Source: Quercus robur (taxonomy: Eukaryota; Streptophyta; Magnoliopsida; Fagales; Fagaceae). Taken from it: a DNA stretch of 64,000 nt. This document shows, piece after piece, positions 3,766 to 55,056 of the stretch. A program made the position numbers and the translations under genes. Numbering within the stretch: position 1 is the stretch's first letter; each line of letters begins with the position of its first letter. The stretch lies in the NCBI RefSeq assembly GCF_932294415.1, contig NC_065542.1:47023942-47087941 (forward strand), in the 5' to 3' direction. The notes below the pieces were generated by a model. The model made no database searches and was not told where the DNA came from. It saw only the letters and a program-made list of their open reading frames with translations.

Positions 3766-4067
3766 GCTGTTGATTTTGTTTCTTAATAAAAAATGAAGAG
3801 AGATGACAAAATTTAACTCAAACTCAAACTCAAACAAACAAGTTGTCCAGTAGGATATGTTAGGTATTTTTTTGTGGTATAGTGATGGTGGTTGATGGGA
3901 TTGAGTGTAGGCAGTAGCTTAGATGTCCAGCAGTGGTGTAGATCGGGCAACGGTGGCTGCTGTGACTGGTGACATCGTGGGTGGAGGTGGTCGGTGCCGG
4001 TCTGGTTGTGGTGTTTGGCTTCTTAATTTGTTGTGAGTAATTAAATTAAGAAAAGACATAATGAGAG
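3766..4067. other. non-coding spacer
   Basis: Contains an ACTCAA short tandem run (about 3808-3828) and a GGTGGTNGTG-rich stretch (3890-4020). No gene or recognisable element. Confidence 0.5.
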
Positions 4068-4084
4068 GATTTAATTAAATAAAG
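4068..4084. repeat. LINE target-site duplication, 5' copy
   Basis: GATTTAATTAAATAAAG, 17 bp, is repeated without mismatch at 9965-9981 directly after the poly(A) tail of the LINE. This defines both ends of the element. Confidence 0.95.
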
Positions 4085-4278
4085 TGTTGTAAAGTCAATT
4101 AGTCTCTCTCCCACGTAGGAGTGTTTCCTCTCTCGAGTGCTTCCTTTACTTTTCTCGAGTGTTCTTTCCCTTTCCTTGATAGGAACAATCTCTAAGGCCC
4201 TAATTCGGAGCTTTTAGTTCTGATTAGGTGGCCTAAATTCTTTGAAAGGCTCCAAATTTCACGGTAAGGATCAGAATC

Positions 4279-5700
4279 ATGGAGAAAGAGCTGATAGATG
4301 TTTTGAAGAACATGCAGCAAACGGAAGAAGAAGAGTTGCAGATCTCAGTTTCGGAAGAAGGCAGAGCACAGGTAATAGAGGAGTGTTCTCAGAGTTTGAT
4401 GGGAAAGGTGTTGACGGACAGAAAGCAAAACCTGCGTGCTCTGAAGAATACTTTAAGGACTGCTTGGAAAATTGGTCAGGATTTAAAGATTGTGGAAGTT
4501 GGAAGTGATATCCTTCAATTCAAGTTTGCCAATGAATATCAGCTAAGGTGGGTTGAAACAAATGGGCCATGGAACTTTGAAAATAACCTTCTATTGCTCA
4601 AAAGATGGGAGAGGGGAATGACGGCAAGTAATATTTCTTTTACCCACTCTCCTTTTTGGGTACAAATTTGGGGTTTGCCTTTTGATATGATGACAGAGAA
4701 GATAGGAAAGGAGATAGCCAGTAATTTGGGGATTTTTATGACAGTAGATACAAGATCATGGATGTCAGAGCAAGCCAAGTTCATGAGGGTGAAGGTGAAT
4801 CTTTCGCTGGAAAAACTCCTAAGAAGATGTGGAAAGGTTGCTAGTCCAGAGGGGGAGAGTTTTTGCATCCAATTTTGGTATGAAAGGTTGCCGATTTTCT
4901 GCTTCAGATGTGGAGTAATGGGGCACGATGAGCGACATTGCAAGAAAAGTGGCCAACAAAATCAAGCTCTGCAATATGGTGAATGGTTAAGGGCTCAAGG
5001 TGGAGGAAAAGCTAAATATACAAAAGAAGAACAAAGAAGGAGTCCTCTAAACCAGCAAGCTGATGACACGGCAATGCAAGAAAGGATGCAGTTTGGGGCG
5101 GAAGACGGGGGCTACTCCTATTCCCGTGGCGGTGCACAATTCAGGGACAATCTTGGAAATGAAAAAAGAGGAAGTCTTGTTTCAATGACGTCAGAGGAAG
5201 GTGAGCACGCCACGCAAGAGGTATGTCAATTTCAATTTCAAATTCAAAATGGTAGACATGATGAGATAGAAGCAAGGAAAAAAAAGGAAAATATCCACGG
5301 TGAAGAGGGAAAAGAAAATAACCAAAATATGGGGCCGGCCCAAACCTTTATGTCAACAGTAGGATGTGAAAATGGGGTAAGTGGGATAACCCACATGGGC
5401 CGGGTAGAAGTAAAAAATATAGAGTTTCAGGAAGTTAATAGCCCAGTTAAAATGGATATTGGGCTTAGTCTAGAAAAGGAAAATAATGATGTGGAAAATA
5501 AAACACAGAAAAATAAGGGTAAACTGAAGAAGCTGGCCCGTGGTCAGAACAAAGAATTTGAAATGGGAAGGGATGCAGCTAGTAATATAGTAGGAGTAAA
5601 GAGAACTCTCTGGGCAGATGAGGAAATGGTTGATGGAGGAAGGCAGAAAAGTTTTGTGGCAGTAACACAACCCCATTTGAGCTATCGGTGGTTTCTGTAG
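4279..5700 (+). CDS. LINE ORF1 nucleic-acid-binding protein (DUF4283, CCHC)
   Basis: An open frame of 473 residues. The N-terminal half (about residues 50-190) has the pattern of the DUF4283 domain found in plant L1 ORF1 proteins, including GPWNFENNLLLLKRW and PFWVQIWGLP. It is followed by one zinc knuckle, CFRCGVMGHDERHC, with C208, C211, H216 and C221 in CX2CX4HX4C spacing. The C-terminal half is charged, low in structure and variable, as is usual. In the family ORF1 protein binds element RNA and forms the ribonucleoprotein with ORF2. The start ATG follows a short leader with no better ATG in frame. ORF2 begins 19 nt after the stop. Confidence 0.92.
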   Translation: MEKELIDVLKNMQQTEEEELQISVSEEGRAQVIEECSQSLMGKVLTDRKQNLRALKNTLRTAWKIGQDLKIVEVGSDILQFKFANEYQLRWVETNGPWNFENNLLLLKRWERGMTASNISFTHSPFWVQIWGLPFDMMTEKIGKEIASNLGIFMTVDTRSWMSEQAKFMRVKVNLSLEKLLRRCGKVASPEGESFCIQFWYERLPIFCFRCGVMGHDERHCKKSGQQNQALQYGEWLRAQGGGKAKYTKEEQRRSPLNQQADDTAMQERMQFGAEDGGYSYSRGGAQFRDNLGNEKRGSLVSMTSEEGEHATQEVCQFQFQIQNGRHDEIEARKKKENIHGEEGKENNQNMGPAQTFMSTVGCENGVSGITHMGRVEVKNIEFQEVNSPVKMDIGLSLEKENNDVENKTQKNKGKLKKLARGQNKEFEMGRDAASNIVGVKRTLWADEEMVDGGRQKSFVAVTQPHLSYRWFL

Positions 5701-5719
5701 AGCAGCACCGCCGGGAGCC

Positions 5720-8700
5720 ATGAATACCTTAAGCTGGAACTGCCGGGGGCTGGGGAACCCCCGGTCAGTTCGAACGTTGTACGATATGGTGCAACGATGG
5801 TGCCCCAAACTGGTATTCTTGATGGAGACAAAAGCTGGAATAAGTAGGATGAGGAGAATAATGGTGAAGACAGGCTTATTAAATGGAGTAATTGTTCCTA
5901 GCAAAGGAAGAAGTGGTGGAATAGCCATGTTATGGGAAAGGGATCTATCTGTGGAGCTTAAAAGCTATACTAGGTATCATATTGATGCAGTAGTGATTGA
6001 TCCTACATCTGGCTTCAAATGGAGAATCATAGGGTTCTATGGAAATCCGGATACAAATCGAAGGAAGGAGTCTTGGGAGTTACTACATTTTCTAAATGCT
6101 CAATTTCAGATACCATGGGTTTGTTTGGGGGATTTTAACGAAATATTATCAAATTTTGAGAAATGGGGAGGTCCAGAGAGACCCCAACAGCAGATGGAGG
6201 GTTTTAGAAGAGTAGTAAATGCTTGTGGTTTTATAGACCTTGGATATGAGGGCCCAGAGTTCACTTGGTGTAACCAAAGGCCAGCTAGGGAAAGAATTCG
6301 ATTAAGACTTGATATGGTGCTGGCTACAACAGAGTAGAAAGATCATTACAAAGATACTAGGGTCCTCCATGTGGTGGATTCAACCTCAGATCACTATGCT
6401 CTGGTTCTAACTAACCAAAGAAATATCCAAGGAAGGGGAAAGAGAAGATTCCAATTTGAGGCAGCATAGGTTAGACATGATAAATGCAAGGAGATAATTC
6501 AAGATGCCTAGAAGTTTTATTCAGGTTTTCAAACGGCAAGTGATTTTGCTGAGGGTCTGAGAGTGTGTGCTGAGGGCTTAACAAGATGGAACAATTCAGA
6601 CCTTAGACATGATGCTAGAATGATAAAAGAGAAGAGAAAGCAACTGCAAGATCTAATCTAGGCTGACAGGGATGGAAGTAGGGGAGAAGAAATTAATGCA
6701 ATAAGGAAGGAAATAAATGAAATGTTAGATGATGAAGAAGTCAAGTGGAATCAAAGATCCAGAATCCAATGGTTGACCCTTGGTGATAGAAACACAAAAT
6801 ATTTCCACTACAAAGCATCTCAGAGAAGAAAGAAGAATGAAATCCGGGGCTTGCTGAATGGAGAAGGGAATTGGTGCGAAGAGAAAACAGACATAGCAAA
6901 TATTGCTGTGAGTTACTTCAAAGAGCTGTACTCTACTTCATTCCCAACCAGAGTGATGGAAGTAGCAGATTTGATACCGAGAAGAGTTACCAGGGAGATG
7001 AATGAAGACTTAACTAAAGAATTCCAGAAGGAGGAGGTTCTTCAAGCTATCCGACAAATGCACCCAACAAAAGCACCGGGTCCGGACGGTATGTCTGCTA
7101 TCTTTTATCAAAAGTATTGGGATATCATTGGGGATGATGTGATAAAAACTATTCTTAATATTCTTAATTTCAATGCCCCTATAGCTGAGCTAAACAAGAC
7201 AAATATAGCTCTCATTCCTAAAATAAATAATCCAACAAAGATAAGTGAATTCCGACCAATAAGCCTTTGTAATGTTTCATATAAAATTGTGTCAAAGATT
7301 CTTGCAAATAGGCTGAAACCTTTTCTCCCCTCCATCATCTCCGAAAGCCAAAGTGCTTTTGTCCCAGGTAGACTCATTACTGACAATGTCCTGGTTGCTT
7401 TTGAAATAATGCATTATCTAAAGAAAAGAAAGGATGGGAAAGAGGGGTATTTGGCAATTAAATTAGATATGAGTAAAGCCTATGACAGAGTGGAATGGTG
7501 TTTTCTTGAAAAAATTATGTCAAAAATGGGCTTTGATAATAAATGGACTAATTTGATTATGAGTTGTATAAACTCTGTTTCCTATTCTGTTCTCATAAAT
7601 GGTGAGGCCCATGGTTGTATTACCCCTACAAGGGGGCTACGCCAGGGTGATCCCTTATCTCCCTACATGTTTCTGTTATGTACAGAAGGACTAACGGCTT
7701 TGATTGTGGAGGCAGAAAAGAGAAGGCAGATTTCAGGCATCTCTATATGTAGGGGCGGCCCAACAATTACCCATCTCTTATTTGCCGATGATAGTGTGGT
7801 CTATTGCAAGGCATCAGAGCAAGAAAGCAGAGAGCTATGCACAATTCTGCATAAATACGAGGAAGCAGCAGGCCAAAAAGTAAATATAGAAAAGTCATCG
7901 GTCTTTTTTAGTAAAAATACTAAGGAAGAAACAAGCGAATGGGTGAAGAATATGCTGGGTTCAATGCAGAATGTACAGCCAGGAAAATACTTGGGCCTAC
8001 CTTTGATGATTGGAGATCAAAGAAACAAATATTCAATGAAGTCAGGGAGAGAGTGGGGAAAAAGATGACCGATTGGAAAGAGAAATTGTTATCGATTGGA
8101 GGAAGAGAAATCCTTATTAAAGCGGTTGCTCAGGCTGTCCCCACGTACACAATGGGGTGTTTTTTACTTCCCAAAGGTCTTTGTGAAGACATTGAGGAGA
8201 TGATGCGGAATTTTTGGTGGGGGCAGAAGAATCAAGAATAAAAAATGGCGTGGGTTAGCTAGTCAAGAATGTGTAATTCAAAGTCAGAAGGGGGAATGGG
8301 GTTTCGGGATCTTTATGCATTCAATTTGGCTATGTTGGCAAAGCAGGGATGGAGGATGTTGGAAAATCCCACATCGCTTATGGCGCGCATGTACAAAGCA
8401 AGGTATTTTCCCAATGGGGATGTTTTAAATGCAAGCATAGGTAGCAACCCATCTTATGCTTGGAGAAGCATTCATAAGAGCATAAAGATTCTGCAGAAAG
8501 GAACAAGATGGAGAGTGGGAAATGGGAAGACAATCCATATATGGGATGATAGATGGTTACCAACCCCAGCGACTTATAAAGTCATTTCCCCAAGGAAAGA
8601 TTTTGGAGATTTCCCTATGGTATCGGCCTTGATTGATCAAGATACTAGAAGATGGAGAAAGGACATTCTTGATAGAGTCTTTCTTGATTTTGAAGTGGAG

Positions 8701-9819
8701 AAAATTCTAAGCATCCCAATCCCTCACTACCCACAGGTGGACCAACTAATATGGGTGGGAAATAAAAAAGGAATTTTCATGGTGAAAAGTGCTTATTTTT
8801 TGGCTAAGGAAATTGTAGAAAAGCATGAAAGAGGTGAATCCTCAGTGGGAGATGTATGTGCCCCACTTTGGAAAAAGATGTGGCACTTAAACATTCCGGC
8901 CAAAGTGAGAGTCTTTGCTTGGAGACTTTGCATGAAGGCCATCCCATCTATGTTGAATATGAGTAATAGGGGAATTCAAGTGGATCCTACCTGCCCTGTT
9001 TGTTGTGGGGAACCTGAGTCAACTGAGCATGCAATAATCTACTGTGGAGCTGTTAAAAGAGTGTGGAGCAAATGGGAAGAATGCCCAATCTATTTGAATG
9101 AAGCCAACATGGAGATTGTGGACTTGGCTTTATGTTTGCTAGAAAAGGGAACACAGAGGGACATGGAGATCTTTTTTGGTGTTGCTTGGATGATTTGGTA
9201 TAATAGAAACCAAATTGTTCATGAGGGAAATGGTGTGTCTGAGGATCACATTTGGGAGACAGCAATCCAAATGATAAAGGAGTTCAAGGGAATAAGGGGC
9301 TGGGAGATAAATAGTCCTCAGAGAAGTGAGAAAGCATGGACTCCTCCACCTGTGGGTTTCTTCAAAATAAATGTAGATGGGGCTGTTCCTTCTGTTGATG
9401 GCCATTCTGGAGTGGGTGTTGTAATTAGAGCTTGGGAAAGAAAGGTGGTAGCAGCAAAAAGTCTTCCTCTATCGGGTCGAATAGCTGTGGAGGAAACATA
9501 AGCCATAGCTATGGAACAAGGAATGATCTTAGCAAAAAACATGGGCTTGGAAAGGACCATTTTTGAAGGGGATTCATTGCAGACAATTCAAGCTATTGAG
9601 GTTAAGGATGTAAGAAGTGTGATTGGCCACATTGTGAAAAGCTGTCTGCAAATTTTTCCAAGCTTCCAGGAGGCAAGAATCAGACATATTAGTAGGGAGG
9701 GCAACAAAATAGCCCACGATCTTGCACAGCTTGCAAAACAATCCGCTGAGGAACAGGTCTGGATTTCAACTATACCGGTTTGGATTGAAGACATGGCGAG
9801 AGCTGAAGGAACGGTTTAA
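5720..9819 (+). pseudogene. LINE ORF2 (endonuclease, reverse transcriptase, RNase H), broken
   Basis: Domains in order: an APE-type endonuclease from the start (MNTLSWNCRGLGNPRS, then GDFNEI and DMVLATTE); a reverse transcriptase with FRPISLCNVSYKIVSKILANR, KLDMSKAYDRVEW, RGLRQGDPLSPYMF and the catalytic FADD near residue 688; a zf-RVT domain (CPVCCGEPESTEH); and an RNase H domain starting FKINVDGAVPS. In-frame stops lie at 6335, 6467, 6509, 6659, 8239, 8260 and 9499, with a single-base loss near 8013 between the reverse transcriptase and the downstream part. Five of the stops are TAG where the family has tryptophan (TGG). All catalytic motifs visible are otherwise preserved. In the family this protein nicks target DNA and reverse transcribes the element RNA. 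Confidence 0.93.
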
Positions 9820-9981
9820 AGTTTGCCTGTGTTTCGTGGTCTAAGTTGTTGCTTTTTCTTATTTTGTTATGCTCTGTTTTTCTGTAGCTTGTGCTCTGTT
9901 TTCTTCAGTGTATCTTCTTATCTGTTTATGAATGAAAGTATTCAGTTTGGTCTAAAAAAAAAAAGATTTAATTAAATAAAG

Positions 9982-13279: not shown

Positions 13280-13446
13280 ATAAAAAAAGTTAAAGAAAAA
13301 AAAAAGTAAAGGTTAAAAAGTGAAAATGTGAAAATATTTTTGAGAGGAAAATGAGGTATTACATTAGATACGTGAACCCAATTCAAAGAAAGGAAGTTTC
13401 TCTCCAAACTAGTTTGGAGAAAAACTCTTTAAAATTATCATATATC

Positions 13447-13732
13447 TCTTTTTTGGGTGTGAATTTTGAAACCATTGAATTTCATGTTCTTTATGTACTT
13501 AACATGCATATCAAATTTCATTCAAATCATATGTTATTTACTATTCGATCAATAAATTTAGTTTTTATACACAATTTTAGATCACAAAAATTTGAAATTT
13601 TAATATTTCTTTGATAACATAGCAATTGATCTTTGATCTTCTTGAAATTTTGCATGCATGAAGGATATAATAAGAAGTAAGAACGTGCAATCAATAGTTA
13701 GATTTTCAAAATTTACACTCAATATAAAGATA
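13447..13732 (+). repeat. solitary diverged satellite-like monomer
   Basis: A single forward unit that aligns end to end with the 345-bp monomer of the array at 1-2945. It shares CATGTTCTNTATG, CTTAACATGCAT, GATCTTTGATCTTCTTGAAATTTTG (compare GATCTCCTTGAAATTTTG in the array) and the closing TTCAAAATTTACACTNAAT. Identity by eye is about 70 percent. It is adjacent to a MITE carrying the same sequence in reverse. Confidence 0.75.
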
Positions 13733-14128
13733 CGGACAAAGTTTAGCTACAAAATTAGTTATACCTTAGGCTACAACCTTACTCAATATCTTTTTATTGG
13801 AGATAAACTTTGATAAATCCACCATTAGATTACATCTTCTTTTTATATCTTCCATACTTATAAAATTTTTAGAAAATTAAAGATCAACAACTATGTCATC
13901 AATAAATTGTTTAAATGCAAGTTTTTGTAGTTTAACATTATGCACAAAATATAAACTTATAGATTATATAGTAAATAATATTTGATTTATACGAAATTTG
14001 ACTTGTGTATTTAGAGTGTAAAGAATATGCAATCAATAGTTAAATTTTCAAAATATGTAGTAATGTTTAATTTATTGAGTAAGGTTGTAGTTTTAGGCTA
14101 CAGTTAGTTTTATAGCTAAATTTTGTCT
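13733..14128. mobile_element. MITE with long inverted ends, satellite-related core
   Basis: About 396 bp. The left end (13733-13789) and right end (14073-14128) form an imperfect inverted repeat of about 55 bp: GACAAAGTTTAGCTACAAAA against the inverse of TTTTATAGCTAAATTTTGTC, and GGCTACAACCTTACTCAATA against TATTGAGTAAGGTTGTAG. Flanks carry an 8-bp direct duplication, TAAAGATA (13725-13732 and 14129-14136). The core (13860-14000) is a reverse-complement relative of the 345-bp satellite monomer. An 8-bp duplication with long ends could be hAT or Mutator-like; I cannot decide. Confidence 0.78.
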
Positions 14129-39754: not shown

Positions 39755-40707
39755 GGCATTTTGGATCAGAGATAGAGATGACCAAGGAACTATTAATGTT
39801 TCTCAAGAGACTGGTGTAAAAACAAAAATGAAATTCATCTCATAATGCTAAACCCTCTCTGACAGCAAATAATACAAAAAAAAAGAAAAAAAAAAAAATA
39901 GAGTTCACTTATGGGCTCGGAACCCCTTTATTACCTTCTTATTATAATGGGTAGGCTAACCAATTAAAGAAAATCCTACAATGAACTGCTGATATGCAGG
40001 AAGTACAACGCTCAGGCAGTTTAAAAAGGTCCCATGCCATTACGGCTGTGACAGGAGAAGAAAACCCACATGTTGAAAAGTTTCCGACTGTAAATTAGCA
40101 TCATAGGCAGACGCAGCCTCCACCAGCAGCGCACTAGTAACAAACAACTTAACATGTACTCACATCCTTTACTCCTTGTTTATTGGGGGATGCTATTTGA
40201 AAAAGACCAAAAATATCCGAAAATTGAATCAAAATTCTTTTTTTCAGTTCAGTTAGATTGTTGATAGATTGTTATGAACTTTGTTCTATTTGGAAATAGG
40301 ATAAATCTTTAGAAAAAGAATTAGTTATTGGTTATACAAGATATGATAGCCATATTGAATTTTAAGGAGACCCAAAATAATAATAAAAATGCGATTCATT
40401 TTAATTTAGGAATTTCGTGGGAGTTTGTAAGCAATTTGAAGAAACAAAAAAATTTCTTGAGTGAACATGATCACATTCACACACAATTAATTAGTGAGCA
40501 GTGAACTATTACACACAGTATGAGAATTAAAGACCCACTATAGATCTCTAATCCTATGGTACTCAGACGGACCAAAACAACTCCTTAAAAGAAAGAGCAA
40601 AGACTCCAACCATTACAGTTATTCAAATAAAAATATAAAGACTAGAACTCTTGTCTCTAAAACGACTACACAATTCAATTAAAACTTATAAGAATTGAAA
40701 TGATATT

Positions 40708-41150
40708 TGATGAGCCTTGAGATATTGTTTGTCCAGACATGGCGATGGACGAGGAACAAACCATAAATGAGGCCTTTATTGACGGAGCCGTTATTATTGG
40801 ACAAAGTAAAGAGGGTAACAGCTCAGAGATCTCCATATCCTGACATTAATTGTCAGAGGCATTACCCAAACAGGGAATTAAACCACCATTAATGGTCATT
40901 TCAACGGCTAGAAAAGCAGAAGCCTATATAAGGAACATCTAACCTAAGGTAAAGACATAGGATCAGAAATATACTCCCATCAACCAAAATTTCTCTTTAT
41001 CATTCTCACTCTCTCTTTCTAACTTTACCATTGGAGGCTCATCGGCTGGCACCATGCCGGTGACTTATCTATTACTTTTTTTTACTATTTTGCAGGTCAC
41101 GCCGAAGCCATTTGGACGATCCTAACCACTGACGATTTTTGCACTCATCA
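40708..41150 (+). mobile_element. solo LTR, 443 bp
   Basis: Begins TGATGAG and ends CTCATCA, a perfect 7-bp inverted terminus, and is flanked by ATATT (40703-40707) and ATACT (41151-41155). The duplicate locus near 52480 lacks it, which confirms both ends. A TATA box CCTATATAAGG lies near 40922, as expected of an LTR promoter. No internal genes remain. Family not assigned. It inserted after the GA2ox duplication, unless copy B lost it. Confidence 0.85.
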
Positions 41151-41172
41151 ATACTCATTTTTTGCCCAAATT

Positions 41173-41864
41173 CTAATTCTTGAAACCATCAAGACGTGTT
41201 GCCGTGAGACCTTGTGAGTATAATTTTTCCTTGTAGGCTTTCCAAGTGAAGGTCCTATAGAGAGAGTGGCCAATGGGTCTAAGCAATTCTGGAGGTGCAG
41301 AAATTGATGCTTGCAGGGAGGGAGCTCCAAAATATACCATTGACATTCTAGGCTTGGATGTATTTGTTAATACCCTGTGCCAGACGCTCACAAATATTCC
41401 GTTTGTTAGAGCCTTCACAAATAAAAATTAATATCAGTGCACAATTTTTTTGGTTAAAAAGAAAACAAGAAGATAAAAAATTACATTTTAAATGACCTAG
41501 AGAAAGAAAGAGAGTATCAACCTGTAACATGTCACACCCACAATAACCCAAAAGGCATTGGGGTCATCTGGGACACTAATCCACGCATCTTTTTCAACAA
41601 GAATTTGGAGGCCAGCAACATTGTTTGATGTAAGAATGCTCAAGAGCTGAGGGTCAGAATGTTCTCCAAAACCTATATCATCATCTTTAGAAGTGGGTAG
41701 ATAGTAATTAAGCCTGAGGAGTGAGTCACTCTCTACGTCCCTAATCAACCCACTGAAAACCGATTTGTCCTTGACATATAGCCCCTCTGCTATCAGCTCT
41801 AATAGCTCACATGTTAGATCCCTAACTGCTTGGATGTAATGATTTACGGTAGAACTGTTGTGTC
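41173..41864 (-). pseudogene. gibberellin 2-oxidase copy lacking exon 1
   Basis: The minus strand contains exon 2 (about 41864-41532) and exon 3 (41412-41173) of a GA2ox gene, nearly identical to the intact gene at 52485-54091. Exon 1 and its promoter are gone. Exon 2 has two extra bases near 41535 (GTCACACCCAC against GTCACCCAC in the intact gene), which shift the frame before the splice site. Exon 3 ends eight codons early (TAG for TCG after KN), and the arginine of the conserved RHRV motif is tryptophan (WHRV). The Fe-binding H and D of GEHSDPQ and the RMS of the 2-oxoglutarate site are kept. A decayed duplicate and very unlikely to make an enzyme. Confidence 0.9.
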
Positions 41865-41955
41865 ATAAGTCTTAAACCTCATTAAAAACTCATCTGGGTT
41901 TATTCCTACACTAGCAATTGACAATGGCACTAGAGAGAGAAAGTGATAACTTTCA

Positions 41956-42231: not shown

Positions 42232-43027
42232 AAATATAGCATTTCGTTGTGTCTCCAATTTCTAAAACGTTTTGTTTGATTATTGGATCACTATATTATT
42301 TTCATTATGTTTTTTGGTAGTGAAAAAGTGATGTCTAATCCCAATTTTTTTTTTAATGTGAGAAATGTTAAATCCACTTTAGTAGAGCTAAAGTGACAAA
42401 AACTGTGGCAATGAAGTGAAAAAATAAATTTAGAGAATCTCTTACTTGCATTTCAAGTTTCCTTTGCTTCAAAATGTCCTGAGAGTTTGTACGAAACTGA
42501 ACGTATGGCTGTTGCATAAGATTATGCAAAATTTACAAATTCGATAGTTTTTGGGACAAAATTTGTTTCACTAGAAATGAAAATGTTTGTGAATATTGGA
42601 AACAGTTTTGGGACAGTTATAACTCTTTACCTGTAATATTTAAATGATTCTAACTCTTACTTTCAGTACTTCTTTCAAAACTATCTAAGAAACACTAAAA
42701 ATGGACATCTCTAAAATTGTTGTATTTAAAATGTAATAAACTTGGTTGTATCCGTGGGATAAATATGTAGTAAGATTTTAGCAACTCTTGTGTGAGTGCA
42801 TATATTGTCTAAGGATATCGTTTCGTTATGGCTCCATATTGTCAAATCTTTCATTTGATTATTAAATCAATATATTTATTTATTATATTTTTTGGCCTTG
42901 GAAATTTGGTGTAAAGTCCCTTTTATTTATTTATTTATTTTTAATGTGAGAATTGTTACTTCCTCTTTATTAGAACTAAAGTGAATGAAATTGTGGCAAT
43001 GAAATGGAAAAAAAAAAAGTTCAGAGA

Positions 43028-43060
43028 ATGTCGTACGTACGAGAGACGTATGTACGACAT
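43028..43060. repeat. palindromic hairpin in an array unit
   Basis: ATGTCGTACGTAC and GTATGTACGACAT form a 13-bp stem (one mismatch) with a 7-base loop, overlapping the perfect palindrome TCGTACGTACGA (43031-43042). Related but decayed forms occur at the same position in other units, e.g. near 47863 and 49748. Confidence 0.75.
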
Positions 43061-44317
43061 ATGAGATTTTTAAGTTTCTTTTGCATTAAAATTTCCTGAG
43101 ACTTTGTACGAAACCCGAACGTATGATTGTTGCACAAGATTATGCAAAATTTAAGAATTTGATAGTTTTTGGGACAAAAATTGTTCCACTTGAAATGAAA
43201 ACATTTGTGAATATTGGAAACAATTTTTGGACGGTCATAACTCTTTAGTACTTCTTTCAAAACTTTCTAAGAAACACTAAAAATCCTTTGGGACTTCTCC
43301 AAAATTGTTGTATTTAGAGCGCAATAAACTTGGTTGTATCCTAGGGATAAATTTGAAGTAACATTTTGGCAACTCTTGTGTGGGTGCGCATATTGTGTAA
43401 GGATAGCGTTTCATTGTGGCTCTAGAGTGTCAAATGTTTTGTTTGATTATTAAATCACTATTTATTTTTATTATATTTTTTTTAGTGAAAAAAAAAAGTT
43501 TATATAATCTCAGACTTACGAGAGTTGTATAAAAGACGTACAAGATTATCAAGTTTCTTTTCATCAAAATTAATTAAGAGTTGTTCAAATCTCGAACGTA
43601 TGAGTGTTGTACGAGATTATGCAGAATTTACGAATTTGATAGTTTTTGGGCCAAAAGTTGTACAACTTGAAATTGAAACTATTGTGAATATTGGGAACAA
43701 TTTTTGGATGGTTATAAGACTTTACCCATGATATATAAATGATTGTAACTCTCACTTTTAATATCTTCTTCTTTCAAAACATTCTAAGAAACACTAAAAC
43801 TCCTCTAGACCATCTCCTAAATTGCTATTTTTAGAACGTAATAAACTTGGTTGTATCTTGGGAATAAATTTGTAGTACCATTTATCAACTCTTGTATAGG
43901 GGCATATATTGTCTAAGGATAGCATTTCGTTGTGGCTCCAAATTCTAAAATATTTTGTTTGATTATTGAATCACTATATTATACTATTCATTATGTTTTT
44001 CAGTAGTGAAAAAGTGATGTCTAATTCCAATTTTTTTAATGTGAGAAATGTTAAATCCTCTTTAGTAGAACTAAAGTGACAAATACTATGGCAATGAAGT
44101 GAATATTTTTTTAGAGAATCTCTTATGTACGAGAGTTGTATGTAAGACCTATGAGATTTTCAAGTTTCATTTGCATCAAATTATCCTGAGAGTTTCTATG
44201 AAACCCGAACGTATTACTTGATAGTTTTTGGGACGAAATTTGTTCCACTTGAAATGAAAACGTTTGTGAATATTGGAAATAGTTTTGGGACGGTTATAAC
44301 TCTTTGCCTGTGATATA

Positions 44318-47300
44318 CACTACAACAAAATGTACTTTCAGTGATGAAAAAATTCGTCACTAAAAGTCCAGTTTTTCATCGCTAAGAACTTTGAGTGACG
44401 AAATTGTAGCCCAGACGCTAAAAGTCCTAGCGACGAAAAATTTCGTCACTAAAAGTCCGATTTGTTTAAAAAAGAAAAAACTTTTAGCGACGAAAACGTT
44501 TCGTCACTAAATGTTTTCCTCGCTAAAAACAGTATTCAGCGACGAAAATATTTTGTTTCAGTTTATTAAATCATATTTAGTGACGAACAATTTCGTCACT
44601 AAAACTGTTTTAGTGATGAAAAAAGTCGTCACTAAAACTATTTTTAAGAAAATCTAGGCATATATAGTGATGAAAATTTTCGTCACTAAAACCATTTATT
44701 ACAAAATTCTGCTACATTTAGCGACAAAATATTTCATCACTACAACAATTTTTTGTTACTATATTTGTGACGAAAAAATTCGTCGCTAAAACTTATTTTC
44801 TGTTTTTATTATTTTCATGGCTTTGATATTAACCTGTAACCTGTCATTACATTATTAAAACCTCATATTTGATTAACACATTTATTTCAACAACACATTT
44901 ATAAAAAATCGATCCATACATTCTACAAGTAAAAAATAAAACAAGTATTCAATTCAAACTCTTTCCATACAATAATTGTTTGCAACACATACAATAACTT
45001 AATATGTTTTATAACAATATAAAAAGTGTAGCATAATATAATTAGAACCAACGGAAGATGTCCTTATATGTCTTCAAATAATGCCAAAAGTAAATCCCCT
45101 AATGCCACCAATAAAAAATCTGCACAAATATTAAAACACTACTACATTAAAGTATTGAAATCGAATAAAGGAACACAATTGCTACTAATCAACAAGTTTC
45201 ATTCACATTTGCAAGAAATTAAAAACATTCCCAATATGAATTTAAACCACCTTATAACACCATGCAAGCCACCTGCTTGCTCCAACACAACAACCCACCA
45301 CAAAACCAATTTCCAACATCACAAGTATATATAGAGTTTTATAAGTTTTTATCTAGAATATACTTACTTTGCTCAAGCTAAATTTACAACTTTCAAAAAA
45401 AAAAATCCAAACTTAACTTGTGTTCTTGACCTTGTTCCTCACAATTTCTTTAGCCACAAAAGAGAGAGAGTTGGAGATAAAAGAAAGCTAACTCTTAGTG
45501 AACGGTTAAGTAGCTAGACCTAAATTTAAAATACATATTCTTTATTCTTTTTCCCGTTTCTAAACAATGGTATAGCTTAGAATTCAATATTGAAAAGATT
45601 GAAACCCCACTTCATGGTATCAAGTCCCCACATTTCCCTTCATTTATATTGTTAGTAACCAGACCCAATCATACCTCAAAAATATTCCTAATGTTTAATT
45701 AGTCAACACAAAACATGGAGTTAAGTTGCCAAGGGCCCACACCCAACATTTGATAAGCCTCCCAATGATCTAATGGCTGCAGTCATCAACACATTCTATG
45801 TATCAATAGGATTTCACCCGCATGCAACACATAGAACAGTGAAGCTTTACCTCTTGATGGAGACAATGCAAGAATTTCAATAAAAAGATGACTCTCAATC
45901 TAGAATACCATAGATTTACATAATAAATAATAAGTAGATAATTGACATAAAATCATTAAAATTAGGTAAATCACAACCAGCATTGAGAAAAAGAAGGAAA
46001 CGCAATGTAATAGTAAATAAACGTGTTAAACTACCCTATCAAGAAGTCTTTCACTGCTTAGGTATTCTTACCGTTGGAGTTGACAAACTCTGCCACAAAA
46101 TTAGTTACCTGCACTAACTACCCACCTCCAGCCTTCCCCATATGGACCGATTCATAAGAATGAATATTAATAAATAATTAACATTAATGAATAATTAATA
46201 TTAATGAATAAATTAATAAATATTAATATTAATGAATGAATATTAATATTAATATTAATTAGATCACATGTAAAAAAAAAAAAAGGAAATCCGATTCATA
46301 AGAACCAAAGCTAACTAAGCACTTAAGCTAAAAATCGAAGTAGAAGTAATTCACAGTAAATCATAATAAGCCTTTTCGTTTGAATATGAAATAAATAAAC
46401 TCATTGATCATATCGAATCCAAACTAATCTAGACAAAAAAAAAAAAACCCTTACCGAATCCAGATCGTCATGAATGGTCCGTATCGGCGGTGAAGGCTTC
46501 ATTGCGAAGGGTCCGAAACGGCGACGAATGGGTTTAAATTGTCGAGAATGGGTTCAAATCAGTGACGGTGGGAGTTGAAATAAAACTTCAAAACCGTTGC
46601 GAATGGGTTCGAATCGACGACGAATGGGTCGAGAATTGGTGACGAATGGGTCCGGAGTTGAAACAACACTTCAAAGCCGTCGAGAATCAAACAACGAATG
46701 GAGTTTGAATCATCTAGAATGGGTCGAGAATCGGCAACGAATGGGTTGAGAACCGTTGAGAATCATCTAGAATGGTTCGGTGTTGGTGTTAATGGTTCGG
46801 CGTTGGTGTATTTGGCTGAAATAAAATGGCTTTTGGGAGGCTTTTGGCTGAAATAAAAGAGATGGATAGGTATTAAATACTCAGGTCTTTAGCGATGAAC
46901 CTTTTCCGTCGCCAATGCCTACTTTGTCATCGCAAAAGGTATCAGGTTTTTAAGTTTTTAGCAACGAATGTCAGTTTTGTCACTAAAGAACCTAGGCTTT
47001 GTTAAGTTTTTTAGAGACGAAATTCATATTTCGTCACTAAAGCATACTTTTAGTGACGAATTGTGATTTCGTCACTAAAAACATATAAGTGCAAAACTAT
47101 TATTATTTTTAGTGACGAATATTTTTCGTTGCTAATTCTTCCTTATAGCGACAAAAGGATTTTCGTCACTAATACTATCCACAACAATATCTACAGTGAC
47201 AAAATATTTCGTCACTAAAAATTTCAACTTTTAGCAACGAAATATTTTGTCGCTATAGATTAATTAAACTCGTGCCAAAGTTTCCCTCCATTGGTGCCCA

Positions 47301-47467
47301 TTTTTTAGATCAAAATAGCGATGAAATTTATTTTTCGTCGCTAAATGTTATAATTTTTTTTCATTGTTAGCGACGAAATTCATATTTCATCACTAAAGCT
47401 GTATTTTTAGTGACGAAAAATATTTCCTCACTAATTTTCATCGCTAAAAATACATTTTGTTGTAGTG
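44318..47467. mobile_element. non-autonomous CACTA element, 3150 bp
   Basis: Starts CACTACAACAAAATGTA and ends ATACATTTTGTTGTAGTG, near-perfect inverted ends. It is flanked by a 3-bp duplication ATA (44315-44317 and 47468-47470), the CACTA signature. Both sides are filled with AGTGACGAAA / TTTCGTCACT subterminal repeats (44340-44800 and 46885-47450). The core (44820-46880) is AT-rich, with a short repetitive stretch of GAATGGGTC(C/G) words at 46470-46800. No transposase is present. Removing it and one ATA restores an uninterrupted array unit. Confidence 0.95.
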
Positions 47468-48370
47468 ATATAAATGATTCTAACTGTCACTTTCAGTACT
47501 TCTTTCAAAACTTTCTAAAATACACTAAAAATCCACTAGGACTTCTCCAAAATTGCTGTATTTAGAACGTAATAAACTTGGTTGTATCCTTGGGATAAAT
47601 TTGTAGTATCATCTAAGCAAATCTTATGTGGGTGCAAATATTGTCTAAGGTTAACGTTTCGTTGTGGCTCCAAATTGTCAAATGTTTTGTTTGACTATTA
47701 AATCATGATATTTTTTTATTATATTTTTTTGTTTTGAAAATTTGACGTGAATTCCTTTTTTTTTTTTTTTTTTTTAATGTGAGAAGTTTTACTTCCTCCT
47801 TAGTGGAACTAAATTGAAAGAAACTATGCTAATGAAATGAAAAAGAAAACTTTTAGAGAATCTCGTTCGTACGAGAGATGTATGTAAGATGTACGAGATA
47901 TTCAAGTTTCTTTTGCATCAATATTTCCTGAGAGTTAGTATGAAACTTGAACGTACAAGTGTTGCAAGGGATTCTGTAGAAATTTGACAGTTTTTTTGGA
48001 TAAAAGTGTTCCACTTGAAATGAAAACATTTGTGAATATTGAAAATAGTTTATGGATGGTTATAACTCTTACCCATGATATATAAATGATTCTAACTCTC
48101 ACTTTCAATGTTTTCTTCATTTTAAACTTTCTTAGAAACACTAAAACTCCTCTACTAGACCAAAATTGTTATTTTTAGAACCTAATAAACTTGGTTGTAT
48201 TCTGGGGATAAATTTATAGTAACCTTCTAGCAACTCTTGTGTGGGTGCATACATTGTCTAAGGAAAGCATTTTATTGTGGGTAAAAATTACCAAGTGTTT
48301 TGTTTGATTATTGAATCACTATATTTTTCTTAATTATATTTTTCAATACAAAAAAAGAGATGTTTGGTCC

Positions 48371-48374
<4 letters not shown>

Positions 48375-48419
<45 letters not shown>
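48375..48419. repeat. T45 homopolymer
   Basis: Uninterrupted T run inside a B unit of the array, where other units carry shorter T runs. Probably grown by slippage. Confidence 0.95.
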
Positions 48420-48422
<3 letters not shown>

Positions 48423-49922
48423 GTGAAAAGCGTTAATTCTTGTTTAGTAGAGGGGGAGTGACAAAAAATGTGACAAACAAATGAAAAAAACATAATTTAT
48501 AGAATCTCGAATGTACGAGAGTCATATATAAGACCTAGTAGAGTATCAAGTTTCTTTTCATCAAAATTAATTGAAAGTTGTACAAAACTTGAACGCACAA
48601 GTGTTGTATGAGATTATGCAGAATTTACGAATTTGACAGTTTTTGAACCAAAAGTTGTACAACCTGAAATGAAAACTAATGTGAATATTGGAAATAGTTT
48701 TTGGACGGTTATAAGACATTACCCATGCTATATAAATGATTGTAACTCTCACTTTTGAATATCTTCTTTATTCAAAACATTCTATGAAACACTCAAACTC
48801 CTCAGGGCCTTCTCTAAAATTTATATTTTTAGTATATAACAAACTTGAAGTACCTTTTATTAACTCTTGTGCAGGGGCATATATTGTCTAAGGATAGCAT
48901 TTTATTGTGGCTCCAAATTCTAAAACGTTTTGTTTGATTACTGAATCATTATATCATATTCATAATGTTATTTAGTAGTGAAAAAGTGATGTCTAATCCC
49001 AATTTTATTAATGTGAGAAATGTTAAATCCTTCTTAGTAGAGCTAAAGTGACAAAAACTGTGGCAATGAAGTGAAAAAAAAAAAATAGAGAATCTCTCAT
49101 GTACTAGAGTTGTATGTAAGATGTATGAGATTTTCAAGTTTCTTTCGCATTAAATTTTCCTAAGAGTTTCTACGAAACCTGAACGAACAAGGGTTGCAAA
49201 AAAAATGCAAAATTTACATATTTGATAGTTTTTGGGACAAAATTTGTTCCACTTGAAATGAAAACGTTTGTGAATATTGGAAATAGTTTTTGGATGGTTA
49301 TAACTCTTAACCCGTGATATATAAATAATTCTAACTGTCACTTTCCGTACTTTTTTCAAAAATTTCTAAGAACCACTAAAAATCTAGAAGGAATTTTCTA
49401 AAATTGTTGTATTTAGATTGTAATAAACTTAGTTGTAACCGTGAGATAAATTTGTAGTATCATTTTGAAAACTCTTGTGTGGGTGCATATATTGTCTAAG
49501 GATAGCGTTTCATTGTGGCTCCAAATTGTCAAATGTTTTGTTTGATTATTAGATCACGATATTTTATTATTATATTTTTTGGTAGCGAAAATTTGATGTG
49601 AAGTCCCTTCTTCTTCTTCTCTTTTTTTTTTTTTTAATTTTTTTTATTTTATTTAAAATGTGAGAAGTGTTACTTCCTCTTTAGTGGAAGTAAAGTAAAA
49701 GAAATTGTGCTAATGTATTGTGAAAAAAAATGTTTAGAGAATATTGTACGTATGAGGGATGTATGGAAGACGTACGAGAGTTTCAAGTTTTTTTTTGCAT
49801 TAATATTTCTTGAGAGTTTGTACGAAACTCAAACGTATGAGTGTTGCAGAGGATTTTGTAGGATTTACAAATTTGACAGTTTTTTGGATAAAATTCATTC
49901 TACTTGAAATGAAAACGTTATT

Positions 49923-50718
49923 TGTGAGGACGTAGACCCAAATATATATTGGGTCTTGGGCCTTATCCGAGGAGGCACAGTGGTCTGAGAATAGATCAAT
50001 AGTGAGGAAGAAGTAAGATTTTGAACTTCACGAGCAAGCTATGACTGTAAAGACTAGGAGAGGTAGGCCGAGGAGGAGTATCTCCTTAGCTAAAAGAAGG
50101 AGTCAGAAAGTGCATTCTGTTGTCTAGAATGATGTTCCAAGAAGTTCTATTGATAAGGATATGCGCTGCAAACGTACAGGACAAATGGGAGCCAAGAAAT
50201 ATCTAAGAAAAAACTGTTACCACCGCATTGAATGCTCTGCAGCCAACTCTCTAGCCAAATTTATGTGGAAAAACCCCTTGAACAATGTTGTCTTGGTCGC
50301 CCCAACTCACAGAGGGTCTGTAAGGGTGTCCGATGGGACAAGTACTCAAGTAGTGGCTTGGATGATCGACAAGTGGAGGGCCAAGATCATTCAAAAGGGG
50401 ATATATAATATAAGAGACCCTGAGGAAAATTGGGTCAAGAAATAGAAAGGGAAACACTATAGCAATCAAGAACTGAATGTGTAATCCAATTTGAGAATCA
50501 ATATATAAGAGCTGATCTCCTCGGATTGTGCCGAGAATAGTTTTCTTTAGATTAAACTAGTCAATCTTCATTTTCTTATCATCTAAATCCACTTTACTTG
50601 TTGTCCAATTCATTAAAGCCCAGTTTTTCAACTCGCTCTCTACAAATTCAATGTATTGGGCTTTTTGGGCCTAAGTTCATTTATTCCTTGGCCTAGGGAC
50701 TCAAATCTGGTCCTTACA
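49923..50718 (+). mobile_element. solo LTR, 796 bp
   Basis: Begins TGTGAGGACGTAGACCC and ends GGTCCTTACA, flanked by a perfect 5-bp duplication TTATT (49918-49922 and 50719-50723). A TATA box (GGATATATAATATAAGAG) lies at about 50399-50416. The host array unit reads on across the empty site. No internal region is left, so the full element was lost by LTR recombination. Family not assigned. Confidence 0.9.
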
Positions 50719-51179
50719 TTATTGAATATTGAAAACAGTTTATGAATGGTTATAACTCCTTACCCATGAATATAAATGATTCTAACTTTCACTTTCAATG
50801 TCTTCTTCTTTCTGAACTTTCTTAGAAACACTAAAAATCCGTTGGAACTTTTCCAAAATTGCTATTTTTAGAACCTAATAAACTTGGTTGTGTTCAGGAG
50901 ATAAATTTATAGTAACCTTTTAGCAACTATTGTGTGGGTGCATATATTGTCTAAGAAGAGCATTTCATTGTGACTACAAATTATCAAGTGTTTTGTTTGA
51001 TTATTGAATCACTATATTTTTTTAATTATATTTTTCAGTATAGAAAACGATATGTTTAGTCCCAATTTTTTTTATTGTGAAAAGCGTTAGTTCCTCTTTA
51101 GTATAGGGGGGAGTGACAAAAAATGTGGCAAACAAATGAAAAAAAAAAAAGTTAATAGAACCTCGAACGTACAAGAGTG

Positions 51180-51790
51180 CAGGGCCGACTGAAGCTATAG
51201 GCCACTTAGGTAGTGGCCTAAGGCCCCCACTGCTAAAGAGGCCCCAAATAGTAATAATATATTATATAATATTCCATCAAAAAATTTTATAGTCTGAAAA
51301 AAAATTGCCTTAATCTTGAATGTTTTCTCACACATGAAAATTATTCCGATATTGATGGTTTAGATTTATTTTCAAAACTAAAAGTTTTAAAAAAAGTTTT
51401 GCAAATAAATGAAAACTCTCCAATTAATGTACTAAATTATATAAAAAGGTTAGAATCTTTTCCAAATGTATGTATTGCTTTCAGAATATTACTAATTATA
51501 CCTGTTACAGTTGCTTCCGTAGAAATAAGTTTTTCAAAATTAAAATTAATAAAATCCTATTTAAGATCAACTATGTCACAAGAAAGATTAAGTGGATTAG
51601 CCATATTACCAATTGAAAAGGAAATGTTAGCGGAACTTGAATGCAAAAATTTAATTAGTAATTTTGCCTCTCGAAAAGCAAGAAAAATAAATTTTAATTG
51701 AAAAAAATATATGAATTTATAATTAAATATAATAAAAAATCCCGTTTAAAGTTTTCGCCTAGAGCCCCCAAATTCATTGAGCCAGCCCTG
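51180..51790 (+). mobile_element. deleted hAT element, 611 bp, keeping the transposase C-terminus
   Basis: Ends CAGGGCCGACT and GAGCCAGCCCTG, with a perfect 8-bp duplication CAAGAGTG (51172-51179 and 51791-51798). An open stretch at 51399-51701 encodes the hAT dimerisation region (FPNVCIAFRILLIIPVTVAS, then SFSKLKLIKSYLRSTMSQERL and LAILPIEKE). The DNA-binding and catalytic parts are gone, so this is an internal deletion derivative that could move only with help from an autonomous relative. It differs from the hAT at 24416 in its ends and protein. Confidence 0.93.
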
Positions 51791-51957
51791 CAAGAGTGGT
51801 ATGTAAAACGAATGGGAGTATCAAGTTTCTTTTCTTCAAAATTAATTGAAAGTTGTACGAAACTCAAACATACAAGTGTTGTACAAGATTATGCAGAATT
51901 TACGAATTTGACAATTTTTGGGCCAAAAGTTGTACAACCGGAAATGAACTAATGTGA

Positions 51958-53195
51958 ATTTTGGATCAGAGATAGAGATTTGAGAGATGACCAAAGAACC
52001 ATTAATGTTTCTCAAGAGACTCGTGTAAAAACAAAAATTAAATTCATCTCAAAATGCTAAACCCTCTCTGACAGCAACTGTAAATTAGCACTATATATAG
52101 GCAGACGCAGCCACCAGCAGCAGCGCACTAGACAAACTACTTAACATGTACTTTTGAAAAATACCAAAAATATCCGAAAATTGAATTAAAAAACCCCAGC
52201 TTCAGTTTATAGCCCTAAATAAATTTATTGTTGTCCAACCAACTTTATATAAACTCAAATTATATAATATGTAGCAGTGAACGATTATACACAGGATATG
52301 AGAATTTAAGACCCGCTATGGATCTCCTATCCAATGGTGCTCAGACGGACCAAAACAACTCCCTGAAAGAAAGAGCAAAGACTCCAACCATTACAGTTAT
52401 TCAAATAAAAATATAATGACTAGAGCTCTTGTCTCTGAAACGACTACACAATTCAATTAAAACTTATAAGAATTGAAATGCTACTCATTTTTCGTCCAAA
52501 TTCGAATTCTTGAAACCATCAAGACGTGTTGCCGCAAGACCTTGTGAGTATAATTTTTCCTTGTAGGCTTTCCAAGTGAAGGTCCTGTAGAGAGAGTGGC
52601 CAATGGGTCTAAGCAATTCTGGAGGTGCAGAAATTGATGCTTGCAGGGAGGGAGCTCCAAAATATACCATTGACATTCTAGGCTTGGATGTATTTGTTAA
52701 TACCCTGTGCCGGATGCTCACAAATCTTCCGTTTGTTAGAGCCTTCACAAATAAAAATTAATATCAGTGCACAATTTTTTTGGTTAAAAAGTAAAGAAGA
52801 AGATCAAAAATTACATTTTAAATGACCTAGAGAAAGAAAGAGAGTATCAACCTGTAACATGTCACCCACAATAACCCAAAAGGCATTGGGGTCAGCTGGG
52901 ACACTAATCCACGCATCTTTTTCAACAAGAATTTGGAGGCCAGCAACATTGTTTGATGTAAGAATGCTCAAGAGCTGAGGGTCAGAATGTTCTCCAAACC
53001 CAATATCATCATCTTTAGAAGTGGGTAGATAGTAATTAAGCCTGAGGAGTGAGTCACTCTCTACGTCCCTAATCAGCCCACTGAAAACCGATTTGTCCTT
53101 GACATATAGCCCCTCTGCTATCAGCTCTAATAGCTCACATGTTAGATCCCTAACTGCTTGGATGTAATGATTTACGGCAGAACTGTTGTGTCATA
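51958..53195. repeat. segmental duplication, copy B
   Basis: Parallels 39757-41866 from TTTTGGATCAGAGATAGAG onward and covers exons 3 and 2 of the intact GA2ox gene. The left border coincides with the end of the tandem array, which stops mid-unit. A second matching block lies at about 55057-55150. Confidence 0.88.
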
Positions 53196-54091
53196 AGACA
53201 TCATGTGTTTGCTGAGAAAGATTAATATGTGAAGATAGAAGTATATTACAAAGGAATAAGGCTGAGAAACAGAAGAATTAAAGAAAGCAACATTAAAATT
53301 TTGGCATATTGGTTGGAGATGTTGTGATAATATACCATTTTTCAACTTTTAAGACTATATAGAGTACATATAATAATTTTTCTCTTCATTCTATTAAACG
53401 AGAATTTTTTTATATAAGAATTTTTTTTCTTCATTATTTTAGACTATATAGAGTACATATAAGAATTTTTCCATATAAGAATTTTTCTCTTTATATACAA
53501 AGAAAATTCTAAATCTAAAAGAATATGATGCAACAACAACATTTATACAAAATCAAAAAAACAACTTAACACTTACATTATATTTTATATGTTAATCAAA
53601 TTTATACTAAACCAAAAAAAACAACTTAACACTTGCATTATATTTTATAAAAAGAATATGATGCAACCGTTGCCAACTTTCCATGCATGTTACAATAAGT
53701 CATAACATATTAAATACCTGAATCGTGAAGGATCATCAGAAATGGTAATGGATTTTTCAGCAATGTAAGATGGGTGAGTACTAAGTAAAAGATACTCAAG
53801 CTCTCCTTTATCTCCAAGGGCACCTATATTCTTGTGGCCATAGCCAAGAGGATTGGCCGGGCTAGCTTGGTCAGCTTGTTGTTTTACAAACGTTGGTTTA
53901 GCAAAGAAACTAAACCCTTCTTGTTGTACTCTTTCTATAATGTCCTTTGGGACACCATGGTTGATCACCTTGAAAAACCCAAATTGATCACATGCCTCAA
54001 CAATGCTCTTTGGCACATTTGATCTATGGTCCCGAAGGTCGATGGTAGGAAGGTTTTTGGAGCCAAGGGGGGTTCGAGAGGACGTGGCCAT
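52485..54091 (-). CDS. GA2ox: gibberellin 2-beta-dioxygenase (GA 2-oxidase)
   Basis: Minus-strand exons 54091-53718, 53182-52852 and 52742-52485 join in frame to 320 residues, the normal size for the family. Introns are 535 and 109 bp with GT-AG ends. The N-terminal dioxygenase part reads LPTIDLRDHRSN and CDQFGFFKVINHGVP. The core has the Fe ligands H and D in GFGEHSDPQ and the distal H in RHRV, and the 2-oxoglutarate contact RMS in KPRMSMVYFGAP. Family-typical words are NPLGYGHKNIG, ELEYLLL, ESDSLLRLNYY and ALTNGRF. GA2ox enzymes hydroxylate bioactive gibberellins and their precursors at C-2 and so inactivate them, in the cytosol, using Fe(II), 2-oxoglutarate and O2. The pattern fits the C19-type enzymes. 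The start has a good context (AATATGGCC). A broken second copy lies at 41173-41864. Confidence 0.93.
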
Positions 54092-55056
54092 ATTAAATTT
54101 TCAAGGAAGTACAAAAAATGAAAATATGGGAAATGAAAGTAAAATAGTGAAGAAGTTGTGTCGGTAATGATGCGTGTAGAAAGAGATGAACTGATAAACA
54201 TCAACAAGAAAATATGAAAAAGTCAAAGAAAATGGAAGTGGAGGGCGAAAATCTAGAAGGTTTTCTCTGAAGGCAGAAATTTCAGTTTCTCAACATATTG
54301 ATTCTCAGGGAGTATTGACAACTTGACATGACCATCCGGGCAAAAAAGAAGTCAAGAAAAAAGAAGTCCATATTTTGTCAGGGACAAAATTAATGCACCC
54401 ATACAACGTCAGCTCTCTTCATGTTGCCAAAAAAAAACCAGCGTTGCTCTCTTCTTTCTTTTTTTGGTTAAAGCGTTGCTCTCTTCAGTAAACCAAAAGG
54501 GGGATTTTAAGAACCATTGGCAAAGACAAAACAAATTAATTCTGTGTCAGAATCTGAGATTAGTGGTCTCGCAACTATAATTGATGTTTGGGATTGAGAG
54601 TAAAAAAAATTTAATTTTTAATTTCAATCATTAAATAAATAAAAGAATGTAAAAAAAATTTGTGAGAGGAAAGGGGGTAATAGTATTAAAGTGCGATATT
54701 TATTGCATATGATCTCAATCCAAACATTCATTATTATTGACTATAAATAGCTTTTTGTTATAAATAGACTCACAACTTTTATCACAAGTCACATCCTATT
54801 ACTTTTTATCTTTTTATAGTTGGGGTAATATAGAAACAAATACAGTAAATTACAGAACCGTAAAAAGACCAGAATGTCCCTTAGAATGTGTGGCCCCATT
54901 TTTAAATCTATCCAGATCAGCTGTACACATAAAAGAAAAAAGGAAAAAAAAAAGAAAGAAAGAAAGATTGAGCTACTTAAGTGGATTCACTTTCCTACTA
55001 CTGTGGTCATCACTCATCATCTTATAGTAATTAGCATAGCACCCATTGTACAATTG
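54092..55056. other. 5' flank of the GA2ox gene
   Basis: Should hold the promoter and 5' UTR on the minus strand. I see no diagnostic element beyond AT-rich sequence. This piece is absent from the duplicate copy at 41866. Confidence 0.5.

Follow-up and report, generated by a model that had tools for sequence, protein, structure and literature searches.

The tandem array in the window is likely an old, low-copy satellite related to a transposon family. A block of three unit types in the order III-I-II was amplified, copied to several places in the genome and is now decaying, and the array is probably not a product of the gene pair that flanks it. The window is the whole stretch of Quercus robur DNA analysed here (64,000 nucleotides, C38:47023942-47087941), and the genome searched comprised 786 Mb in 42 contigs.

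The array (42236-51957) is arranged head-to-tail and measures 5153 bp (5.15 kb) once three insertions are excised. In the phase used here it holds eight ~0.6 kb units and one partial first unit, in the order III-I-S, III-I-II, III-I-II (Table 1). Cut at a conserved anchor, the units after the partial one were 618, 480, 579, 615, 648, 588, 653 and 622 bp long. The partial unit was scored in three sub-regions, and type III was the top type each time (mean 91%, 91% and 86%). The sequence-only reading had described nine units in three blocks. That count stands as eight units plus the partial one, but the blocks are unequal and the type II slot of block 1 is occupied by a chimeric unit, S.

When the joined array was aligned to itself, a lag of 1843 gave 81% identity over 2125 columns, and lags of 611 and 1199 gave 71% and 72%, respectively. 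The mean identity between units was 0.853 at lag 3 and 0.822 at lag 6, compared with 0.783, 0.782, 0.765, 0.792 and 0.773 at lags 1, 2, 4, 5 and 7. This phase-3 excess was reached by 84 of 20000 permutations of unit order. Three unit types do repeat in order, as had been noticed from the letters. The block spacing is unequal (lag 1683 from block 1 to block 2, lag 1843 from block 2 to block 3) because the type II slot of block 1 holds the 474-bp S chimera. Within the window, K80 was 0.28 between types (three units) and 0.148 between blocks 2 and 3 (three pairs).

Table 1. Positions of the array units, insertions and flanking gene copies in the window, and of a repeat common to four other unit-bearing loci (positions within each locus)
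Feature	Position	Strand	Remarks
Partial 2-oxoglutarate dioxygenase copy and 3' flank, left of array	39758..41869	-	97% identity, 718 columns, to 52482-53197
Partial first unit, type III, block 1	42236..42581	+	profile positions 243-624
Type I unit, block 1	42585..43199	+	clade with L009/L010 type I, 100/99
Shortened chimeric unit S, block 1	43202..43675	+	profile ~333-430 missing
Type III unit, block 2	43679..44258	+	unit profile and tree
Type I unit, block 2	44260..48024	+	profile and tree; split by insertion 44318-47467
CACTA-like DNA transposon	44318..47467	.	inverted ends CACTACAACAAAATGTA, TSD ATA
Type II unit, block 2	48027..48673	+	unit profile and tree
Type III unit, block 3	48677..49262	+	unit profile and tree
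Type I unit, block 3	49264..49913	+	unit profile and tree
Type II unit, block 3	49916..51948	+	profile and tree; split by 49923-50718 and 51180-51790
Solo LTR, by structure	49923..50718	.	796 bp, TG...CA ends, TSD TTATT
hAT element remnant	51180..51790	+	TSD CAAGAGTG, imperfect CAGGGC ends
Longer 2-oxoglutarate dioxygenase copy with exon 1, right of array	51958..54100	-	homology and Pfam
~1.1-1.6 kb repeat copies	L016 3974-5381; L017 2905-6570; L011 5558-7129, 8153-9501; L010 7-1541		

Each of the three insertions has a matching target-site duplication (TSD), and excising the insert with one TSD copy restores the repeat sequence. The excisions proposed earlier were right to within the TSDs. 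The CACTA-like insert was classified by inverted CACTA termini together with a TSD of 3 bp. It is probably non-autonomous, and the ORFs listed inside it are all shorter than 120 aa. The hAT remnant combines an 8-bp TSD with a hAT protein (ORF 51270-51698, Pfam Dimer_Tnp_hAT, 3e-15) of which only the C-terminal dimerisation region is present, and its terminal repeats are imperfect.

Related arrays were found elsewhere in the genome with two queries, a type III stretch and a type II stretch, which gave the same arrays. A third query (L012:7341-9466) returned matches swamped by a repeat inside it. Four arrays lie on C38, at 46.645, 47.066 (the window), 47.390 and 50.868 Mb. C40 carries one array at 56.571-56.578 Mb, C1 carries one at 54.013-54.016 Mb and a remnant at 54.048 Mb, and pieces occur on C2 (89.680 Mb) and C4 (36.565 Mb), together with short partial matches. 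The arrays have 2 to about 11 units and there are about ten loci in all; these counts are lower bounds, and the C40/C1 kind may have further arrays. The sequence-only reading had set the window array apart from centromeric and subtelomeric satellites. For the latter this contrast was too sharp, as the C40 array lies ~54 kb from a telomeric TTTAGGG tract of ~9 kb. The C38 arrays are ~6-10 Mb from the contig end, and the final 8.9 kb of C38 showed no TTTAGGG tract.

We obtained 41 units of at least 380 aligned positions: eight from the window, four from L009, seven from L010, two from L011, ten from L012, six from L014, one each from L015 and L016, and two from L017. The period was tested on 37 units of six arrays, of which L009 and L011 were too short to test. 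A period of three was observed in the four others. Lag-3 identity was 0.885 in L012 on C40 (0.737 and 0.732 at lags 1 and 2; 10 of 20000 permutations reached the excess) and 0.879 in L010 on C38 (0.802 and 0.799; 177 of 20000), where a type-I-like fragment after S breaks the unit order. In L014 on C1 it was 0.909 (0.740 and 0.748; 1339 of 20000, p=0.067), which with six units is not significant alone. Agreement in order between arrays is weak evidence by itself, since a three-slot cycle allows just two orders.

Maximum-likelihood trees were built from 33 of the 41 units, leaving out four S units and the four single units of L015-L017. Units grouped by type and not with their neighbours, as the sequence-only reading had expected, and the period and the tree together bear out its claim that a three-unit block was itself copied. 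Type II formed one clade (100/100) with units from C38, C40 and C1. Forcing the seven window units together was rejected (381 log-likelihood units, AU p=4.5e-46), and so was holding the 16 C40/C1 units as one clade (p=4.6e-98). The type II clade across contigs and the rejected window clade indicate that the types predate these arrays. Type III was found on C38 only in this tree (99/97), and the third slot on C40 and C1 is filled by IIIb, which falls into a larger group with type I. By these trees, types I and III are not cleanly common to C38 and C40/C1. In a quicker tree of all 41 units, the L017 units (C4) fell inside type III, the L016 unit (C2) with IIIb, and the L015 unit (the C1 remnant) with type II. 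Clustering by array was weak over all arrays (17 label changes versus a shuffled mean of 20.2; 7 of 200 shuffles were as low), and for the window units we counted four changes, a value at least as low as which was reached in 4 of 500 shuffles (mean of the shuffles 6.5). Because of this weak clustering, some later exchange inside arrays is likely.

The S unit of the window is type-I-like in its left part (the left end averages 87% to type I) and type-II-like in its right part (the right end averages 83% to type II). In separate trees of the two parts (37 units for the left, 35 for the right), the left part joined type I (86/75) and the right part joined type II (100/99). The S units of the window, L009 and L010 grouped together in both trees (100/100 left, 95/98 right). 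The first type I unit of the window likewise grouped with type I of L009 and L010 (100/99), apart from its counterparts in blocks 2 and 3, which paired together (97/95). Since its type I and S units group with L009 and L010, block 1 should not be read as just another copy of the two later blocks. Judged by these groupings, the window array is composite, and block 1 resembles arrays 0.3-0.4 Mb away more than blocks 2 and 3. Unequal exchange, the mechanism suggested earlier, is plausible for both the block expansion and the S chimera, at the level of what unit order and similarity imply. The satellite family is apparently non-coding, and no sign of function was seen in the arrays.

About half of the monomer is shared with a dispersed repeat family. 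Profile positions ~6-321 match the interior of this family, and ~322-624 are other sequence. A first look gave 1074 candidates, of which 40 were scored. Of 22 loci fetched, 19 matched the unit profile, but 18 of the 22 had come from a query that included the unit-like stretch (15 of these match) and the other four from a query with the unit (each of them matches), so that the overlap is not independent and the sample is biased. Among the 23 matches, 21 lay within 6-322 and 12 ended at 318-322. The consensus of nine chosen copies has a 3' hairpin, CCCATGCATnGCATGGG, followed by TTAGCGACTAG/T (CTAG/T). In the hairpin 84% of cells were paired, compared with 14-48% in slid versions, but the covariation score does not stand out from shuffles (214 of 500 reached it), and single-copy folds gave z -4.89 (L046) and z -1.29 (L020). 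At the 5' end, six of 14 ends read TCTATATATA(A/G)TATAAAA and the remaining eight do not. We take the 3' hairpin with CTAG/T and the 5' TC to resemble Helitron ends, and the family is called no more than Helitron-like here, after these ends. The transfer is inferred to have run from the common dispersed family to the rare satellite. In a side observation, locus L021 contains a 3.9-kb direct duplication (998-4895 and 6031-9901, 95.6% identity), and the duplicated stretch carries a copy of the Helitron-like element.

Another tandem repeat occupies the start of the window. Positions 1-2949 are an array of a 345-bp unit whose copies are 88-96% identical and whose start lies before the window. This unit forms short arrays on at least 10 contigs, with 88-95% identity among the matches listed, the query itself excluded. 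An inverted sequence pair at 13396-14080 looks like a palindromic relative or source of the 345-bp repeat, to which it is ~71-77% related. After the 345-bp array there is a LINE-like element (4246-9498) with an ORF containing DUF4283 and a zinc knuckle, and then reverse transcriptase. The idea that the 345-bp repeats are 5' monomers of this LINE was unsupported: on visual comparison, the nearest two of the LINE copies listed (on C4 and C39, with 91% protein identity) lie close to none of the 345-bp matches listed. At L018 2226-2848 (C5), a relative of the 345-bp repeat directly adjoins a match to positions 314-624 of the 0.6-kb unit.

The spread of the arrays can be followed in part through their flanks. 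L012 and L014 have more than 0.8 kb in common beyond the array end, with K80 of 0.069, 0.123 and 0.097 in the three largest pieces. The four closest unit pairs between these arrays gave 0.075, and the blocks within each array gave 0.110 in L012 and 0.098 in L014 (three pairs each). Because the flank divergence is similar to that of the unit pairs, and the blocks within each array differ by more than these pairs do, block amplification probably came first, and by these distances the two arrays probably parted afterwards, by duplication of a single segment. L009 and L010 have the same junction, in which the 105-bp end of a repeat (87%) is joined at the same unit position. These 105 bp are more diverged (K80 0.152) than four unit pairs (0.083). 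At the threshold used, the window array had no flank in common with another array. Segmental duplication, as read from these flanks, may explain part of the spread.

A repeat of ~1.1-1.6 kb is common to four unit-bearing loci. In L011 it directly borders the array, and in L010 it is ~2.2 kb away from it; in L017 it sits next to units, and in L016 inside them. In L016, ~13 profile positions are duplicated on either side of it, like a target-site duplication, and this copy looks like a later insertion. In L017 two copies are inverted and nearly symmetric. The opposite orientation of units in L017 (C4) and L016 (C2) had raised the candidate of a foldback or long-inverted-repeat element. It was set aside as the vehicle: at both loci the shared ~1.1 kb repeat is found inside the units or next to them, and identity between the unit arms of L017 is just 79% over 208 columns.

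Both flanking genes were assigned as 2-oxoglutarate dioxygenases by Pfam domains (2OG-FeII_Oxy, 5.5e-14, at 41500-41862 in the left copy; DIOX_N, 1.7e-16, at 53693-54100 in the right copy). The sequence-only reading had placed the array between two copies of GA2ox (gibberellin 2-oxidase), which is a candidate identity within this class of dioxygenases. The right copy indeed includes exon 1, but the left is just a fragment, whose homology ends at 41869, near the inferred start of exon 2; no exon-1 match was found left of the array. Over five matching pieces K80 ranged from 0.024 to 0.076 (0.039 overall). Two stretches of the left fragment, 40706-41151 and 39869-40086, have no counterpart in the right copy, and are likely insertions in the fragment or losses in the right copy. 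Further exon-1-like pieces at 47.24 and 47.34 Mb indicate repeated gene duplication in this stretch of C38. A translated search of 18 other loci (L009-L026, 3.6-9.9 kb, some holding only single units) gave no match to the window gene. If rates were similar, the distances suggest that the block arose long before the gene was duplicated (0.148 versus 0.039), and that the order of events was divergence of the types (0.28), then of blocks 2 and 3 (0.148), then of the gene copies (0.039).

Three other explanations were weighed against this background. The three-unit block might have been made where it now lies, by unequal exchange linked to the duplication of the dioxygenase gene, as the array sits between two copies and at 51958 its right end meets the homologous 3' flank. 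We consider this very improbable. The same types occur in the other C38, C40 and C1 arrays, no match to the gene came from the other loci searched, and divergence is greater within the array than between the gene copies. A local origin would also require the window array to be the source of the arrays outside it, which the interleaved tree does not show; this explanation is largely contradicted. The tie between array and gene was set aside, and with it the earlier view that the array belongs to its place between gene copies. Another explanation is that the trimer evolved twice, on C38 and on C40/C1, starting from one pool of diverged monomers in which type II alone was clearly common to both. 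Only type II is a well-supported clade across the three contigs, and a clade of III with IIIb was marginally rejected (p=0.024). However, in each of the six sub-regions no pairing was closer than that of type I on C38 with type I on C40/C1 (at 530-624 type II tied with it), and a single clade for every type I unit, although absent from the tree, was not rejected (p=0.24). IIIb was nearest type III at positions 0-100 (86% versus 80%) and nearest, or tied nearest, type I in the later sub-regions. This pattern suggests a III/I mosaic, as a recombinant of an ancestral trimer would be, and the unit order is identical in both lineages. Two origins seem unlikely, and in our reading the units go back to a single ancestral trimer, with mosaics arising later.

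The array, or a larger piece holding it, could also have been part of a transposon and have spread by transposition. Half of the monomer matches the interior of the Helitron-like family, the ~1.1-1.6 kb repeat occurs in four loci and adjoins or lies inside units in three of them, and Helitrons with central tandem repeats are described in the portion of a review that we draw on (PMC10048060). Yet the array borders have no common ends, and the unit positions at which arrays start and stop vary, though L009, L010 and L012 begin near 501-505. The flanks differ except for the pairs L012/L014 and L009/L010 and the ~1.1-1.6 kb repeat, and in L016 this repeat itself has the appearance of a later insertion. 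Such a vehicle is improbable in our view, more so than two origins of the trimer.

The preferred reading, an old satellite whose block was copied and is decaying, would run as follows. The ~0.6-kb monomer would have formed when sequence shared with the Helitron-like family (~6-321) was joined to other sequence (~322-624), and an ancestral array may then have diverged into the three monomer types. Amplification then acted on III-I-II as a single higher-order unit, with unequal exchange as the most likely mechanism. Pieces of array would later have been carried elsewhere, at least partly by segmental duplication, to which the shared flanks of one pair and the shared junction of another point. 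The arrays would then have decayed with limited homogenisation, gathering transposon insertions and deletions, and the window copy would be one relic of this. Its position between dioxygenase copies may be a coincidence or may reflect a duplication-prone region of C38.

The head-to-tail monomers, and the greater likeness by type of units three apart, are those of a higher-order satellite. High identity between block copies, which reflects recent homogenisation, is usual in classic higher-order satellites, and was not observed here (K80 0.098-0.148). The arrays are an old, decayed form of such a satellite. Like centromeric alpha satellite, they contain diverged monomer types amplified as an ordered block. 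The higher-order copies of alpha satellite are nearly identical and extend over megabases, whereas the blocks here differ by K80 0.10-0.15 and the arrays have 2 to about 11 units.

The excerpts of PMC7004042 used here describe satellites of Lathyrus sativus (grass pea) born from Ogre retrotransposon repeats. The oak arrays are similar in their transposon-related monomer, short arrays and later element insertions; they differ in that the relative is Helitron-like rather than an LTR retrotransposon 3'UTR, and in having about ten loci and a three-type higher-order unit. Higher-order peaks are marked in the same excerpts for FabTR-2, which is treated there as a centromeric satellite. The portion of the review mentioned above (PMC10048060) also covers short dispersed satellite arrays near genes, to which the present arrays are alike in length, in setting and in their Helitron-like link. 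That portion describes tandem repeats inside, or released from, many elements and does not mention a fixed three-unit order kept in few old arrays, as is the case here. Within the literature covered, which lay outside subscription papers, no paper was recognised as describing this satellite family, and this is weak evidence of absence.

Higher-order repeats have mostly been studied in large, recently homogenised centromeric arrays. The family described here is small, old and low-copy, and its insertions, two array pairs and recombinant units allow the steps of type divergence, block amplification, dispersal and decay to be put in order. The setting between gene copies was suggestive but misleading until the rest of the genome was searched. 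In conclusion, we tentatively propose that a three-type block has been inherited in fixed order between contigs at about ten short loci. Higher-order structure might then outlive homogenisation and be carried as segmental duplication outside centromeres, and the S and IIIb mosaics might be a fossil record of crossovers.
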